Below the pieces are notes generated by a model. That model worked only from the letters and a program-made list of their open reading frames with translations, was not told the DNA's origin and made no database searches. A program made the position numbers and the translations under genes. Of a DNA stretch of 64,000 nt, positions 50,906 through 63,978 are shown piece by piece. Each line of letters begins with the position of its first letter. Within the stretch, counting starts at the first letter, position 1. Source of the stretch: an uncultured Pelagibacteraceae bacterium (lineage in GTDB: Bacteria; Pseudomonadota; Alphaproteobacteria; Pelagibacterales; Pelagibacteraceae); the NCBI GenBank assembly GCA_902627565.1, contig CACOJM010000005.1:1-64000 (forward strand). The letters are read 5' to 3'.

Positions 50906-51488
50906 TTTGTTGATTTAAATATTCTTTTATCCTTTCTACTGGAATTCCCATTATAGTATTCTCATTTCCCTCTATTTTTGAAAACAAGCTTCTGCCAAGA
51001 CCTTCTATTTGATAAACATTATAAGAGTATAACGCGTCATCGCTTATTTTGGATAAATATTTTTCTAATTCACTTTCTTCCATTTTTTTCATTGTGAGAG
51101 TGGCCTTATCAGTATAATTCCATATCATATTCCCTCCCTTAGATATGCAAACAGAACTTATTAACTGGTGTGTTTCGCCGTTTAAATTATTTAATATTTT
51201 TAGTGCTTCTTTTCTATTCTCTGGTTTTGATATCACCCTTCCCTTTAGGTCAATTACACTATCAGCTCCAATTACATAGCTTTCGGGAAATTTTTGACTT
51301 ACTTTATTAGATTTAAGTTCAGCAAGATTTTTTGATATAATTTCTGGAGAAGCATTTTGTTTTTCCAAGCTTTTTTTAATTATATCTTCATCAATATTAG
51401 AAGGTTGAACGTTGCAAATAATATTGTTTTTTTCTAAAATTTCTTTTCTGACTTTGCTTTTTGAAGCTAAAATAATTTTTTTAACCAT
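50898..51488 (-). CDS. maf: Maf-family nucleotide pyrophosphatase
   Basis: A 196-residue Maf protein of the house-cleaning NTP pyrophosphatase type: ILASKSKVRKEILEKNNI at the start, VIGADSVIDLKGRVISKPENRKEA and LNGETHQLISSVCI. Such enzymes hydrolyse dTTP, UTP or modified nucleotides. It overlaps ppsR by 8 bp. Confidence 0.94.
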   Translation of the reverse strand: MVKKIILASKSKVRKEILEKNNIICNVQPSNIDEDIIKKSLEKQNASPEIISKNLAELKSNKVSQKFPESYVIGADSVIDLKGRVISKPENRKEALKILNNLNGETHQLISSVCISKGGNMIWNYTDKATLTMKKMEESELEKYLSKISDDALYSYNVYQIEGLGRSLFSKIEGNENTIMGIPVERIKEYLNQQND

Positions 51489-52311
51489 TTTTTTTACTTA
51501 GATAAATCTCATGAATCTTAATTACTGATGCTGCTGTTTCTTCAACAGATTTTCTCGTCACGTCTATTGTTGGCCACTTATATTTTTTAAATGTTGCTTT
51601 AGCATCATCTACTTCTTTCCTAATAATTTCCAAATTTGTATAATCTTGGCTTTTTGTTTCTTTCAACGAATTAATTCTGTTCTTTCTAATATCTGCTAGC
51701 CTTTCGGCCTCTGATGTTAAGCCAATTACACAAAATGCATCTGGATTTTTCTTCAAATTATCAGGTAAAGAATTATGATTCACCAAAGGAATATTTGTTG
51801 TTTTGTAGCCTTTATTGGCCAAATATATTGATGTAGGGGTTTTGCTGGTCCTGCTTACTCCTAATAAGATTATATCAGATTTTTCAACATCATTTAATAA
51901 ATTCCCGTCATCATGATTCATTGTAAATTGTATGGCTTCAATCCTATTATAATATTCTTCGTTTAAAGCGTATTGACCACTAGGTTCATGAGATGCTTCT
52001 TGATTAAATAACTTTGAAAAACTTAAAATTAAACTTCCAAGAACCCCAAAACATGGAATTTTTTTTTCATTACATGAATTTGCTAAAAATTTAGCTAAAT
52101 TATTATCGACAATTGTGTATAAAATTATTGAATTTTCTTCTTTCACCGCCAAATCTAGTATTTTGAGTATTTGGTTCTCGGTTCTGGTGAAAGAATATGA
52201 ATTAACTTTACATTCAATATTTTTAAATTGTGCCTTTAATGACAAAAAAATTCTCTCTAATGTTTCCCCAGTAGAGTCGGAAATTAAGAAAATTTGGTAA
52301 GTATTACTCAT
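51481..52311 (-). CDS. Pyruvate,phosphate dikinase regulatory protein (PSRP/ppsR family)
   Basis: A 276-residue bifunctional kinase/pyrophosphorylase family protein (DUF299) that controls PPDK or PEP synthetase. Visible cues are LISDSTGETLERIF at the start, FTMNHDDG, and the nucleotide loop LLGVSRTSKTPTSIYLANKGYKT near residue 150. Its homologue in Caulobacter is the gene that flanks the replication origin on the side opposite hemE, and the same pairing is present here. It begins a minus-strand operon ppsR-maf-aroE-coaE-dnaQ. Confidence 0.93.
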   Translation of the reverse strand: MSNTYQIFLISDSTGETLERIFLSLKAQFKNIECKVNSYSFTRTENQILKILDLAVKEENSIILYTIVDNNLAKFLANSCNEKKIPCFGVLGSLILSFSKLFNQEASHEPSGQYALNEEYYNRIEAIQFTMNHDDGNLLNDVEKSDIILLGVSRTSKTPTSIYLANKGYKTTNIPLVNHNSLPDNLKKNPDAFCVIGLTSEAERLADIRKNRINSLKETKSQDYTNLEIIRKEVDDAKATFKKYKWPTIDVTRKSVEETAASVIKIHEIYLSKKNG

Positions 52312-52501
52312 GTATATCTTGTTAATATCTTTGTAATATCTAAATAAAATTAAACAAATTTATTTTTTTTTAAAATTGCTTGAAAAACAAGGGTTTTATT
52401 AACAAAATTAATCCTGTGGGAAATAAATATACAAATGGTTGGGTAAATTCAAAATAACAAGTAAATTAATTTAAAAATTATGAATAAAACGGTTAATAAA
52501 A

Positions 52502-52510
52502 TGTTGATAA
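52502..52510 (-). promoter_or_regulatory. Candidate DnaA box, one mismatch
   Basis: The minus strand reads TTATCAACA, eight of nine matches to TTATCCACA. It is 13 bp from the perfect box. Confidence 0.55.
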
Positions 52511-52523
52511 ATAATAATTACCA

Positions 52524-52532
52524 TTATTCACA
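52524..52532 (+). promoter_or_regulatory. DnaA box TTATTCACA
   Basis: An exact match to the DnaA-box consensus TTATNCACA, in an AT-rich surround next to hemE. Confidence 0.7.
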
Positions 52533-52571
52533 TTATCTACTAAAGATACTATCTAAATATATATTAATATA

Positions 52572-53573
52572 ATGACACCTATAAATAGAGTTTTAAAAGA
52601 AAAGAATACAACTATCAACCCAATTTGGATTATGAGACAAGCTGGAAGATATTTGCCTGAATTTCGAGATATTAGAAAATTAAATACTGATTTTATAAAA
52701 TTATGTTTAAACACAAAATTAGCAAAAGAAATTACCTTACAGCCTCTTAAAAGATTTGATTTAGACGCTGCAATAATCTTTTCTGATATTCTAATGTTGC
52801 CATATGCTCTAAACCAAAAAGTTGAATTCAAAAAAAATTTTGGCCCTATTCTGGGTGAATTGGATTTAGATGATATATTAAATGTGAATGAAGATGAATT
52901 TGTTCAAAAAATTTATCCAGTTTACGACGCAATAAATATGGTTAGCAATGATAATCTTACTAAAAATAAGAGTACAATCGGGTTTGTTGGAGCGCCATGG
53001 ACATTATTGGTTTATATGCTTAATAAACAATCACCAAAATTAGGATTAAAAAAAGATTTTTTTGAAGATAAATCTTTAATTAAAAAATTGTTAATTATTA
53101 TAGAAAAATTTTTAAAAATTCATATAAAAAATCAAATTAATAATGGAGCAGATGTTATTCAAATCTTTGATAGTTGGGCAGGGTTGTTAGAAAAGAAAGA
53201 CTTATCAGAATATATATATGATCCAACTTTAAGTTTAGTAAATTTCGTTAAATCTTTAAACATACCAGTGATATGTTTTCCTAGAGAAATTAAAAATTAT
53301 AAGGAATTTTGTGAGATTGTAAAACCAGACGCAATAAACATCGACTACAACACGAATCCTAAAATAATAGTTAATAACATAAAAATTCCGGTTCAAGGCG
53401 GACTAGATCCTAAAATATTGTTAACAGACAAGGAAATATTAAAAAAAGAAGCTACAAAATATCTCGATATTTTTAAAGATCATCCATATATATTTAATTT
53501 AGGACATGGAGTACTTCCGGAAACAGATCCAAATATGTTTGATTATTTGGTTAAAACAGTAAAAAATTATTAA
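52572..53573 (+). CDS. hemE: Uroporphyrinogen decarboxylase
   Basis: Converts uroporphyrinogen III to coproporphyrinogen III. The 333-residue TIM-barrel shows WIMRQAGRYLPEFR, FSDILMLPYALNQKVEF, GFVGAPWTLLVYML and the closing FNLGHGVLPETDP. Its start is 40 bp from a DnaA box, and hemH starts 1 bp after its stop, suggesting a hemE-hemH-hemG operon. Confidence 0.98.
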   Translation: MTPINRVLKEKNTTINPIWIMRQAGRYLPEFRDIRKLNTDFIKLCLNTKLAKEITLQPLKRFDLDAAIIFSDILMLPYALNQKVEFKKNFGPILGELDLDDILNVNEDEFVQKIYPVYDAINMVSNDNLTKNKSTIGFVGAPWTLLVYMLNKQSPKLGLKKDFFEDKSLIKKLLIIIEKFLKIHIKNQINNGADVIQIFDSWAGLLEKKDLSEYIYDPTLSLVNFVKSLNIPVICFPREIKNYKEFCEIVKPDAINIDYNTNPKIIVNNIKIPVQGGLDPKILLTDKEILKKEATKYLDIFKDHPYIFNLGHGVLPETDPNMFDYLVKTVKNY

Positions 53574-61698: not shown

Positions 61699-62345
61699 TG
61701 GATAATCAAATTTTAGATTCTTACTCAAAAATATCGAACTTGAATGTTTCACGTGAAACTTGTAATGAACTTGAAAGCTTAATTTCTATGATTCAGGAGA
61801 AAAATAAAAAAATTAACCTAATAAGCCGAGAAATATACGAAAAAGAGCAAATAAGACAAAGACATATAATAGATTCAGCGCAAATAATTGATTTTGTTGA
61901 TTTAAATTGTAATACAACCTCTGATTTAGGTACGGGAGGAGGAATGCCTGGATTAATAATAGCAATCGTAATGAAAAAAATAAAAAACGATATGAAAATT
62001 AATCTTTATGAAAAAAGTTATCACAAGTGTGCTTTTTTAAAAGAGGTCTCAAAAAAATTAAATTTGAACACTGATGTAATTCAAAAAGATATTTTTGCAG
62101 TTAAAAACATAGAAACCGGAACAATAATGACCAGAGCCTTTAAACCTATGCCAGTAATTCTTGATTTAGTTAATGAAAATTTTAAAACATATAAAAATTT
62201 AATCATGTTCATGGGCAGTACAGGAAAAAAAATTTTAAACGAAACACTTAAGGAGTGGGATTTAGATTATGATGAAAAAAAAAGCCTAACAAATGAAGAC
62301 TCGTTTATATTAAATATTAAAAAAATTAAAAAAAAAGTCTCATGA
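61698..62345 (+). CDS. rsmG: 16S rRNA (guanine527-N7)-methyltransferase
   Basis: Methylates G527 of 16S rRNA. The 215-residue protein has NVSRETCNELESL near its start, the SAM-binding SDLGTGGGMPGLIIAIV (near residue 75) and LYEKSYHKCAFLKEVSKKL. The N-terminal VSRET segment is encoded by a near-perfect parS site, as often in this gene. It starts at the ATG overlapping the mnmG stop by 1 bp. Confidence 0.97.
   Translation: MDNQILDSYSKISNLNVSRETCNELESLISMIQEKNKKINLISREIYEKEQIRQRHIIDSAQIIDFVDLNCNTTSDLGTGGGMPGLIIAIVMKKIKNDMKINLYEKSYHKCAFLKEVSKKLNLNTDVIQKDIFAVKNIETGTIMTRAFKPMPVILDLVNENFKTYKNLIMFMGSTGKKILNETLKEWDLDYDEKKSLTNEDSFILNIKKIKKKVS
61745..61760. promoter_or_regulatory. parS: parS centromere-like site inside rsmG
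   Basis: TGTTTCACGTGAAACT matches the parS consensus TGTTTCACGTGAAACA at 15 of 16 positions. It is the binding site at which ParB starts to spread. It is inside the first codons of rsmG, about 0.6 kb from parA and about 9 kb from the candidate origin, the usual neighbourhood for parS. Confidence 0.9.
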
Positions 62346-63136
62346 AAATAATATCAATAATAAATCAAAAGGGTGGTGTGGGCAAAACAACAACAGTTAT
62401 AAATTTGGCTTCAGCACTATCCCAGCAAGGAAAAAAAATTTTAGTAATTGATTTAGACCCGCAAGGAAATGCCACAACTGGATTGGGACTATCTAACACT
62501 GAACAATCAGATCAAACAATATATGGAATTTTAAATGGAACAATGCAAATCAGAGATGTAATCAAGAAAACAAAGTTTGAAAATCTAGATTTAATCTCAT
62601 CTAACGTAGATCTGTCAGGGTTAGAGGTTGAAACAGCAGGAGATAATGACAGAGCTTTTATTTTGAAAAGTAAATTAACCGCATATTTAAACAATTCTGG
62701 AGCATCATATGATTACATTCTAATAGACTGTCCTCCATCTTTAAGCCTGCTAACTGTTATGGCTTTAGTATCCTCAAATTCGCTTTTAGTTCCTCTTCAG
62801 ACAGAATTTTTTGCTTTAGAAGGTTTAACTCAGCTTATGAAAACTATTGAAAGAATAAAAGTCAATTTAAATCCTAGCTTAACAATTCAAGGAATACTTT
62901 TAACAATGTATGATAGAAGAAATAAATTGTCGTCTCAAGTTGAAGCAGAAGCAAGGAATTATTTTAAGGATAAAGTATACCAAACAGTCATACCAAGAAA
63001 TGTTAGATTGTCCGAAGCACCTTCTCATGGTATGCCAGTTCTAATTTACGATAAAAATTGTCCAGGGAGTAAATCATATTATAGTTTTACAGACGAATTT
63101 GTTAATCAGGAAAATAATATTGGGAGTGCTGCATAA
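62342..63136 (+). CDS. parA: Chromosome partitioning protein ParA
   Basis: Walker-type ATPase of the ParABS segregation system; ATP-bound dimers bind DNA nonspecifically and pull ParB-parS complexes. The 264-residue protein has KGGVGKTTTVINLASAL (deviant Walker A, residues 10-17), VIDLDPQGNATTGLG, YILIDCPPSLSLLT and the C-terminal IPRNVRLSEAPSHGMPVLIYD. It overlaps rsmG by 4 bp and parB by 1 bp. Confidence 0.98.
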   Translation: MKIISIINQKGGVGKTTTVINLASALSQQGKKILVIDLDPQGNATTGLGLSNTEQSDQTIYGILNGTMQIRDVIKKTKFENLDLISSNVDLSGLEVETAGDNDRAFILKSKLTAYLNNSGASYDYILIDCPPSLSLLTVMALVSSNSLLVPLQTEFFALEGLTQLMKTIERIKVNLNPSLTIQGILLTMYDRRNKLSSQVEAEARNYFKDKVYQTVIPRNVRLSEAPSHGMPVLIYDKNCPGSKSYYSFTDEFVNQENNIGSAA

Positions 63137-63978
63137 TGAATTCGCAAATTAAAAAAGGTTTAGGAAGGGGTTTATCTTCTTTGATAGGTGAAACTAAAGT
63201 AGAGTCAAGAACTAACAAGCTCTCATTGAGCGACATTATCCCAAATAAATTTCAGCCAAGAAAAAATTTTGACGAAGAAAACCTGATTGACCTCACAAAC
63301 TCTATAAAAGAACGAGGAGTTATTCAGCCAATAATAGTAAGAAAATCTAGTTCTGACTTATCTAAATATGAAATTATAGCAGGTGAAAGAAGATGGTTGG
63401 CTGCTAGAAGAGCAAACCTTCATGAAATACCAGTAGTAGTTACAGAAGCAGACGATTTAAAATCATTAGAATTTGCTATTGTTGAAAATGTTCAAAGACA
63501 CGATTTAAATCCATTAGAAGAGGCTGAGGGTTATAAGCGATTAATTGACGATTTTTCCTATGACCAAGAAAAAGTCTCAAGATTCATCGGAAAAAGTAGA
63601 AGTTATATAACTAATTCACTTCGCTTATTAAACTTGCCATTAGAAGTTTTAAGATTTGTTAAAGAAAAAAAAATATCAGCAGGTCATGCAAAGATCTTAG
63701 TAGGATTAGATAACGCAGAATTTATTGCTAATAAGATAATAGAAAAAAAATTATCAGTTAGACAAGCCGAAAATTTTGTTAAAATTTTTAAAAAGAAAAA
63801 GAAAAATTTTTCTTATAAAGACGCGAATATTAAAAATCTTGAAGAGACTATATCTGCTAAAACTGGTCTTAGTGTGTCAATTAAAAATACAAAAAAAAAC
63901 AAAGGAACAATAATTTTTTCATATCATGATTTAGATCAATTGAATAAAATTATAGAAATAATAAAAAAAAATTATTAA
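63136..63978 (+). CDS. parB: Chromosome partitioning protein ParB
   Basis: CTP-dependent clamp that loads at parS. The 280-residue protein starts with KGLGRGLSSLIG, then the ParB/Srx CTPase fold (IVRKSSS, ENVQRHDLNPLEEAEGYKRL with the ENVQR motif and a GERRWLAARRA box), a helix-turn-helix (VSRFIGKSRSYITNSLRLLNLP) and a C-terminal dimerisation segment. Complete; the stop lies 22 bp before the window end. Confidence 0.98.
   Translation: MNSQIKKGLGRGLSSLIGETKVESRTNKLSLSDIIPNKFQPRKNFDEENLIDLTNSIKERGVIQPIIVRKSSSDLSKYEIIAGERRWLAARRANLHEIPVVVTEADDLKSLEFAIVENVQRHDLNPLEEAEGYKRLIDDFSYDQEKVSRFIGKSRSYITNSLRLLNLPLEVLRFVKEKKISAGHAKILVGLDNAEFIANKIIEKKLSVRQAENFVKIFKKKKKNFSYKDANIKNLEETISAKTGLSVSIKNTKKNKGTIIFSYHDLDQLNKIIEIIKKNY

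Follow-up and report, generated by a model that had tools for sequence, protein, structure and literature searches.

Where does replication begin on the chromosome of SAR11 bacteria (Pelagibacteraceae), and is the short gap between ppsR and hemE in the present contig the place? The gene pair hemE-COG1806 bounds both the Caulobacter Cori and the Rickettsia origins, as described in PMC1914354, and a sequence-only reading of the window (the whole 64-kb stretch of DNA analysed here) had placed a likely chromosomal origin between hemE and ppsR on the Caulobacter model. The boundary pair is indeed COG1806-hemE, and the comparisons below indicate that the gap at 52312-52571 is very probably the oriC of the SAR11 chromosome. 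PMC1914354 sets out seven criteria for an oriC, not all of which need hold; on the first two, boundary genes homologous to those of a relative's origin (a) and an intergenic length of 200-1000 bp (b), the locus offers COG1806 and hemE, 260 bp apart.

51481-52311, minus strand: ppsR (COG1806), left boundary gene (Pfam Kinase-PPPase PF03618, 5.7e-88)
52312-52571, no strand: non-coding gap of 260 bp between ppsR and hemE, candidate oriC
52572-53573, plus strand: hemE, right boundary gene (Pfam URO-D PF01208, 3.3e-84)

The gap and its boundary genes

By the ORF calls the gap is exactly 52312-52571, and Pfam confirms the two boundary genes. ppsR ends a minus-strand block and hemE opens a plus-strand block, with the gap in between, just as the sequence-only reading had it. 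Its description of the gap as very AT-rich also holds, with 45 of the 260 bases being G or C (17%), which is below every 2-kb window of the 64 kb (22-39%) and constitutes the raised A+T content of criterion (e). A gap that separates divergent genes could be a mere promoter or regulatory region of ppsR and hemE, its repeats being regulator sites, and four promoter-like matches do occur in it. That number is, however, at chance (3.6 in shuffles), and the word that recurs in the gap is that of a DnaA box.

DnaA boxes

Scored with a weight matrix built from other species, the gap contains five sites above 8 bits, one of 5.2 and one of 4.8 bits, which by sequence are the predicted DnaA binding sites of criterion (c).

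52320-52328, minus strand: DnaA box F, ATATTAACA (9.6 bits; TTATTAACA at this column in 39 of 109 loci)
52396-52404, plus strand: DnaA box C, TTATTAACA (12.6 bits; at this column 59 of 109 loci have TTATTAACA and 16 have TTATCAACA)
52415-52423, minus strand: weak DnaA box D, TTTCCCACA (5.2 bits; column poorly conserved)
52479: further weak site (4.8 bits by the weight matrix)
52491-52499, minus strand: DnaA box E, TTATTAACC (8.3 bits)
52502-52510, minus strand: DnaA box B, TTATCAACA (11.7 bits)
52524-52532, plus strand: DnaA box A, TTATTCACA, adjoining the triplets described below (12.7 bits; TTATTCACA at this column in 68 of 109 loci)

Boxes A and B lie 13 bp apart, the distance at which a second box had been reported from the first, and box D is the weak third box of the same account. 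The box called perfect there is perfect for the degenerate consensus TTATNCACA but not for TTATCCACA, from which boxes A and B each differ by one mismatch. The impression that boxes are few did not survive: under the SAR11 consensus TTATT(A/C)ACA there are the five sites above 8 bits in addition to the weak ones, and the earlier count was low because another consensus had been used, with TTATTAACA at 52396 (plus), ATATTAACA at 52320 (minus) and TTATTAACC at 52491 (minus) being overlooked.

The canonical word TTATCCACA was rejected as the SAR11 consensus. It has no exact copy anywhere in the 64-kb window (eight copies are listed in the assembly of this organism, none of them on the window's contig, C5), one-mismatch matches to it are common in the window (38 versus 22 expected in shuffles), and window totals of TTWTNCACA (10 versus 12.4 expected) and TTATNMACA (16 versus 13.5 expected) are at chance. 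Thus, the textbook word alone is insufficient to make the case. What distinguishes the gap is clustering: nowhere else in the window do three TTATNMACA sites fall within 261 bp, and the other-species weight matrix ranks this stretch first.

Conservation of the gap across SAR11

Two sets of loci were compared, 30 from relatives (the window being L001) and 80 from the best hemE matches; the sets may share genomes, and related loci in the counts are not independent of one another. The window's hemE is 71-78% identical to these best 80 of 161 matches. In 109 of the 110 loci, the window included, ppsR and hemE are divergent and 260-287 bp apart, while the remaining locus, L082, is cut by a contig end and starts inside hemE.

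When every 9-mer of the 109 gaps was counted without supervision and compared with shuffled sequence, TTATTAACA ranked first (166 versus 5.8), the same word shifted by one base second, and TTATTCACA third (83 versus 1.1). TTATNMACA occurs 355 times versus 18 in shuffles, at 11.9 per kb and in 108 of the 109 gaps; the 118 bp preceding rho, taken from 76 loci as a control, contain none versus 2.4 expected. Over 800 kb scanned in the complete relative G012, the gap is again the sole 261-bp stretch with three TTATNMACA sites, and by weight matrix it ranks second of 40 stretches, the first (462407) lying inside an ORF. Sites are therefore denser here than in other intergenic regions, as criterion (d) has it. 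On criterion (f), higher homology among relatives than elsewhere, the gap does not stand out, its mean pairwise identity being 66.5% versus 67.7% for the region upstream of rho (30 of the 76 loci).

The sixth position of the box divides the sites. At box A it is mostly C (84 of 96 near-consensus rows), whereas A prevails at box B (73 of 86), box C (94 of 105) and box F (84 of 93); at box E, A is found in 48 of 73. According to PMC4468827, the weak boxes of Caulobacter have a function, and replication can decrease when mutations make them stronger. From these patterns we infer an affinity ranking in which box A would be the strong anchor by the opening site and the others weaker sites of an array.

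Matches to the IHF site, which criterion (c) names as well, are at chance level, with one in the window's gap and 32 versus 38 expected over the 109 gaps. TTAAN7TTAA, a CtrA-type motif, has no match in the window's gap; over the 109 gaps it occurs 92 times versus 62 expected. The CcrM site GANTC is rarer than expected in the 109 SAR11 gaps (8 versus 27), but the 76 rho-upstream controls are short of it too (0 versus 23 expected), and we rejected its depletion as an origin-specific trait.

A triplet element beside box A

In the DnaA-trio layout, a box is followed after about 4 bp by triplets whose central base on the complementary strand is A, the published rule asking for at least three consecutive 3'-NAN-5' triplets with the box 0-16 bp away (PMC8287927). 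A recognisable DnaA-trio-like element, as judged from the sequence, follows box A, and behind it an A+T-only tract that is the likely unwinding region.

52533-52536, no strand: spacer of 4 bp (of the 93 loci in which at least two NTA triplets follow one another, 86 have a spacer of 4)
52537-52551, minus strand: DnaA-trio-like element (top strand CTA CTA AAG ATA CTA; bottom strand 3'-GAT GAT TTC TAT GAT-5')
52555-52571, no strand: A+T-only tract that reaches the start of hemE, predicted from sequence as the unwinding region

The box-to-triplet distance of 4 bp is within the published range of 0-16 bp. The window's third triplet is degenerate, its own run being two, and because this triplet is AAG the window lacks the three consecutive NAN triplets of the rule. 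As a discriminator the rule was discarded as uninformative here: it is passed by 73 of the 109 loci and by 82 of 160 control sites, the latter being other TTATNMACA sites from 39 of the 40 G012 stretches, with the origin stretch left out.

TA recurs in register. Counted from the start of box A, TA stands at offsets 14, 17, 20 and 23 in 101, 90, 66 and 100 of 109 loci, and at the neighbouring offsets 13, 15, 16, 18, 19, 21, 22 and 24 in 0-12 of 109; at offset 12 it is found in 52 of 109, and at offsets of at least 26, in the AT tract, in 4-56. The 160 control sites give 11, 20, 12 and 20, with no periodicity, and the 21 gaps that are less than 72% identical to each other give 18, 17, 16 and 18. 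A strict box-plus-triplet pattern searched in 61 whole genomes has 12 matches, none outside the window's genus, and 11 of the 12 immediately precede hemE (the reversed pattern has 5); it is found neither in the genome of the window itself nor in 24 sister-family genomes.

The broken run of the window leaves room for an origin that unwinds without a DnaA-trio, its triplets reflecting constraints of the hemE promoter or of the AT tract. We regard this as unlikely, given the three-base register over 109 loci and the fixed 4-bp spacer, and the relatives with other neighbours or greater divergence bear on it further.

Relatives with the same and with changed neighbours

ppsR has a match in 79 of the 114 Alphaproteobacterial genomes searched, that of the window included. 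In the best 30 of these 79 loci (again with the window), hemE is divergent beside ppsR in 28, so that the pair is present in 27 of the 29 other best-scoring loci; in L174 and L185 a rho-like gene takes the place of hemE beside the gap. Within 200 bp of hemE, runs of at least three C(T/A/C)A triplets occur in 15 of the 27 loci versus 0.81 expected from base shuffles, and in these 27 distant gaps no such run lies on the other strand or on the ppsR side. This pattern was chosen after the sequences were seen, which makes the asymmetry of side and strand the stronger part of the result. Narrower patterns give weak results, with CTA x3 in 1 of 27 distant gaps versus 0.04 expected, and NTA x3 in 5 of 27 versus 2.27 expected, 3 being on the other strand. 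Unwinding without a trio would fit strict CTA/NTA runs that are near chance in distant relatives; it does not explain why the broader runs share strand and side.

None of 20 sister-family loci has ppsR in the 1.5 kb that precede hemE, and the gene was not found in any of 14 genomes of this family searched with the query that matched 79 genomes across the class. In the seven loci with ORFs inspected, a maf-like gene, so named by its resemblance to the maf-like gene of the window, lies directly beside the gap. The gap itself is 271-281 bp in 19 of the 20 loci; in L147 it is 207 bp, owing to a misplaced hemE start. TA-rich tracts stand at the same place as the window's A+T tract, and CTA repeats precede hemE as x4, x3 and x4 in L133, L150 and L152, respectively. 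Four further loci have CTA-ATA-CTA, and in the other 13 of 20 the NTA runs are one or two triplets long. These short runs again speak for unwinding without a trio, and the threefold and fourfold CTA repeats against it.

Box words in the sister family differ from those of the window's genus. TTATNMACA occurs 10 times versus 2.2 expected, in 7 of 20 gaps; TTATCCACA is present in 4 and TTGCCCACA in 16 of the 20, and TTATTAACA and TTATTCACA in none of the 20.

The opposite replacement is seen in G143, a complete genome from another genus of the window's family, in which ppsR is present and a rho-like gene stands in the place of hemE. Its only hemE match is distant (33% identity) and lies at 718 kb, about half a genome away. 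The gap (L174:2317-2669, 353 bp) contains three copies of TTATAAACA, one of them followed by 4 bp and CTA ATA. In this genus, g5, the triplets accordingly precede rho rather than hemE, contrary to what a constraint from the hemE promoter would predict.

A non-coding gap with origin features is thus retained where either gene is absent from its side. Its persistence without ppsR in the sister family, and without hemE in the other genus, argues against a mere promoter, and together with the chance number of promoter-like matches leaves the regulatory-region account very improbable.

We see about even chances for a broader hypothesis, in which the window's genus has shifted its DnaA-box language to TTATT(A/C)ACA, with a single anchor carrying C at position 6 and the other conserved boxes carrying A, in a graded-affinity origin of about 260 bp. 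Its non-coding core would have outlived the loss or exchange of either boundary gene in related lineages, and if this is true, the origin, and not its neighbours, is the conserved unit.

Replication axis

Metagenomic coverage of SAR11 is V-shaped, with one origin and one terminus (as reported in PMC9589681), and GANTC methylation in Pelagibacter follows an ori-to-ter gradient (PMC9516812). The assembly to which the window belongs has 1,034,696 bases in 31 unordered contigs and is 84.66% complete. We therefore measured the axis in the complete relatives G012 (40 stretches, L112-L131 and L153-L172, with 698 ORFs) and G143 (20 stretches, 326 ORFs).

The replication axis at the gap is clear in the first relative and partial in the second. 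In G012, raw GC skew changes at the gap from -0.055 on the left to +0.044 on the right; the first 20 stretches by themselves gave a smaller contrast, -0.013 / +0.040. With all 40 stretches and correction for gene strand, third-position and 4-fold skews separate leading from lagging genes at the gap axis (reached in 0-1 of 200 permutations), the skew extremes lie 0-60 kb from the antipode of the gap, and gene orientation places the best origin 37 kb from the gap, with 64% of coding bases leading as compared with 63.6% at the gap itself. In G143, raw GC skew is -0.074 / +0.083 on the two sides, the third-position GC skew peaks at 7 kb from the gap's antipode (1 of 200 permutations at the gap), and gene orientation puts the best origin 28 kb from the gap; at odds with this axis, three of the four skew measures do not reach significance at the gap, and third-position AT skew has its extreme 188 kb from it (2 of 200 permutations). 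The GC-skew plot that had been proposed as a check thus agrees with the gap in G012, in skew and orientation alike, and in G143 only for third-position GC skew and orientation. On criterion (g), both genomes have a GC-skew shift, which is weak and resolves tens of kilobases.

As a separate observation, at the 4-fold sites of G012 G minus C is lower, and A minus T higher, in leading-strand than in lagging-strand genes. The 4-fold GC skew is opposite in sign to the third-position skew, which counts against the skew evidence.

dnaA, DnaA and parABS

E. coli has DnaA-binding sites, datA and DARS, with titration or regulatory roles, and the gap could be such a site, the true origin lying elsewhere, for example at dnaA. 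The cluster of boxes is an observation while its function is deduced, dnaA is indeed elsewhere (in G012 it lies about 63 kb away), and skew resolves the axis to tens of kilobases only, all of which a titration site would accommodate. The dnaA loci themselves offer little to this account: that of the window's own genome has one TTATNMACA, inside the start of the gene, and none in the 393 bp covered upstream, and the G012 stretch holding dnaA is without a triple TTATNMACA cluster. The triplet register and A+T tract by box A moreover fit opening rather than titration, and a parS-like site lies 9 kb from the gap. On balance, we find a titration or regulatory site improbable.

61745-61760, plus strand: parS-like site TGTTTCACGTGAAACT, inside the start of gidB (rsmG; PF02527), one mismatch to the 16-mer used as the parS reference
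62342-63978, plus strand: parA and parB (PF13614; PF02195, PF17762, PF23552)

The parABS system that had been noted 9 kb away is thus in place. The parS-like site, inside the start of gidB and just upstream of parA, would be a centromere embedded in coding sequence.

The DnaA of this organism has N-terminal, ATPase and helix-turn-helix domains (Pfam). In an alignment with 8btg (B. subtilis DnaA), the RDHTT motif is identical, such that the shift in box word is not explained by an obvious change of the recognition helix. Hydrophobic residues are kept in the presumed single-strand-binding stretch.

The gap as a probable chromosomal origin

Considering the computed position, conservation, clustering of boxes, triplet register in relatives, persistence of the gap and replication axis, the best explanation as a whole is a chromosomal origin with box A and weaker boxes, opening by a trio filament, and segregation by ParAB, to which we give a probability of roughly 0.86. 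The origin proposed between ppsR and hemE is hence supported by gene neighbourhood, box clustering, gap persistence and replication axis. DnaA would bind box A (TTATTCACA, strong type) and the weaker-type boxes B, C, E and F with A at position 6; a filament growing from box A would cross the 4-bp spacer onto the minus-strand triplets (the DnaA-trio) and open the A+T-only tract before hemE, where the helicase may be loaded, and the nearby parS with ParAB would then segregate the new origins.

With its signature of boxes and triplets, an origin placed this precisely provides a fixed coordinate, and a small natural origin for in vitro work. It would also be a case of an origin persisting while neighbouring genes change.

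Comparison with known origins

Set against the origins of Caulobacter and Rickettsia type, the SAR11 gap is shorter, at 260 bp. Compared with Caulobacter, it has the box TTATT(A/C)ACA instead of G- and W-boxes, and the window's gap is without a match to the CtrA-type motif TTAAN7TTAA. We found no description of SAR11 origin boxes or triplets in the literature searched, and DoriC or supplementary tables may list the gap.

With respect to the basal unwinding system as set out in PMC8287927, the first base of the SAR11 top-strand triplet is A, C or T, and the window's degenerate third triplet departs from the rule given there. The likeness to this system lies in the box, the 4-bp gap, the T-A triplets in fixed register in relatives and the AT tract (PMC8287927). 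With the oriC of Caulobacter and Rickettsia, the locus has in common its boundary genes, divergent layout and AT-rich gap (PMC1914354), and with that of Caulobacter also DnaA boxes of the weak type and a parS no more than about 10 kb away (PMC4468827). The gap is very probably an origin in the known Alphaproteobacterial place, whose box word is specific to the lineage and whose unwinding element can be recognised.
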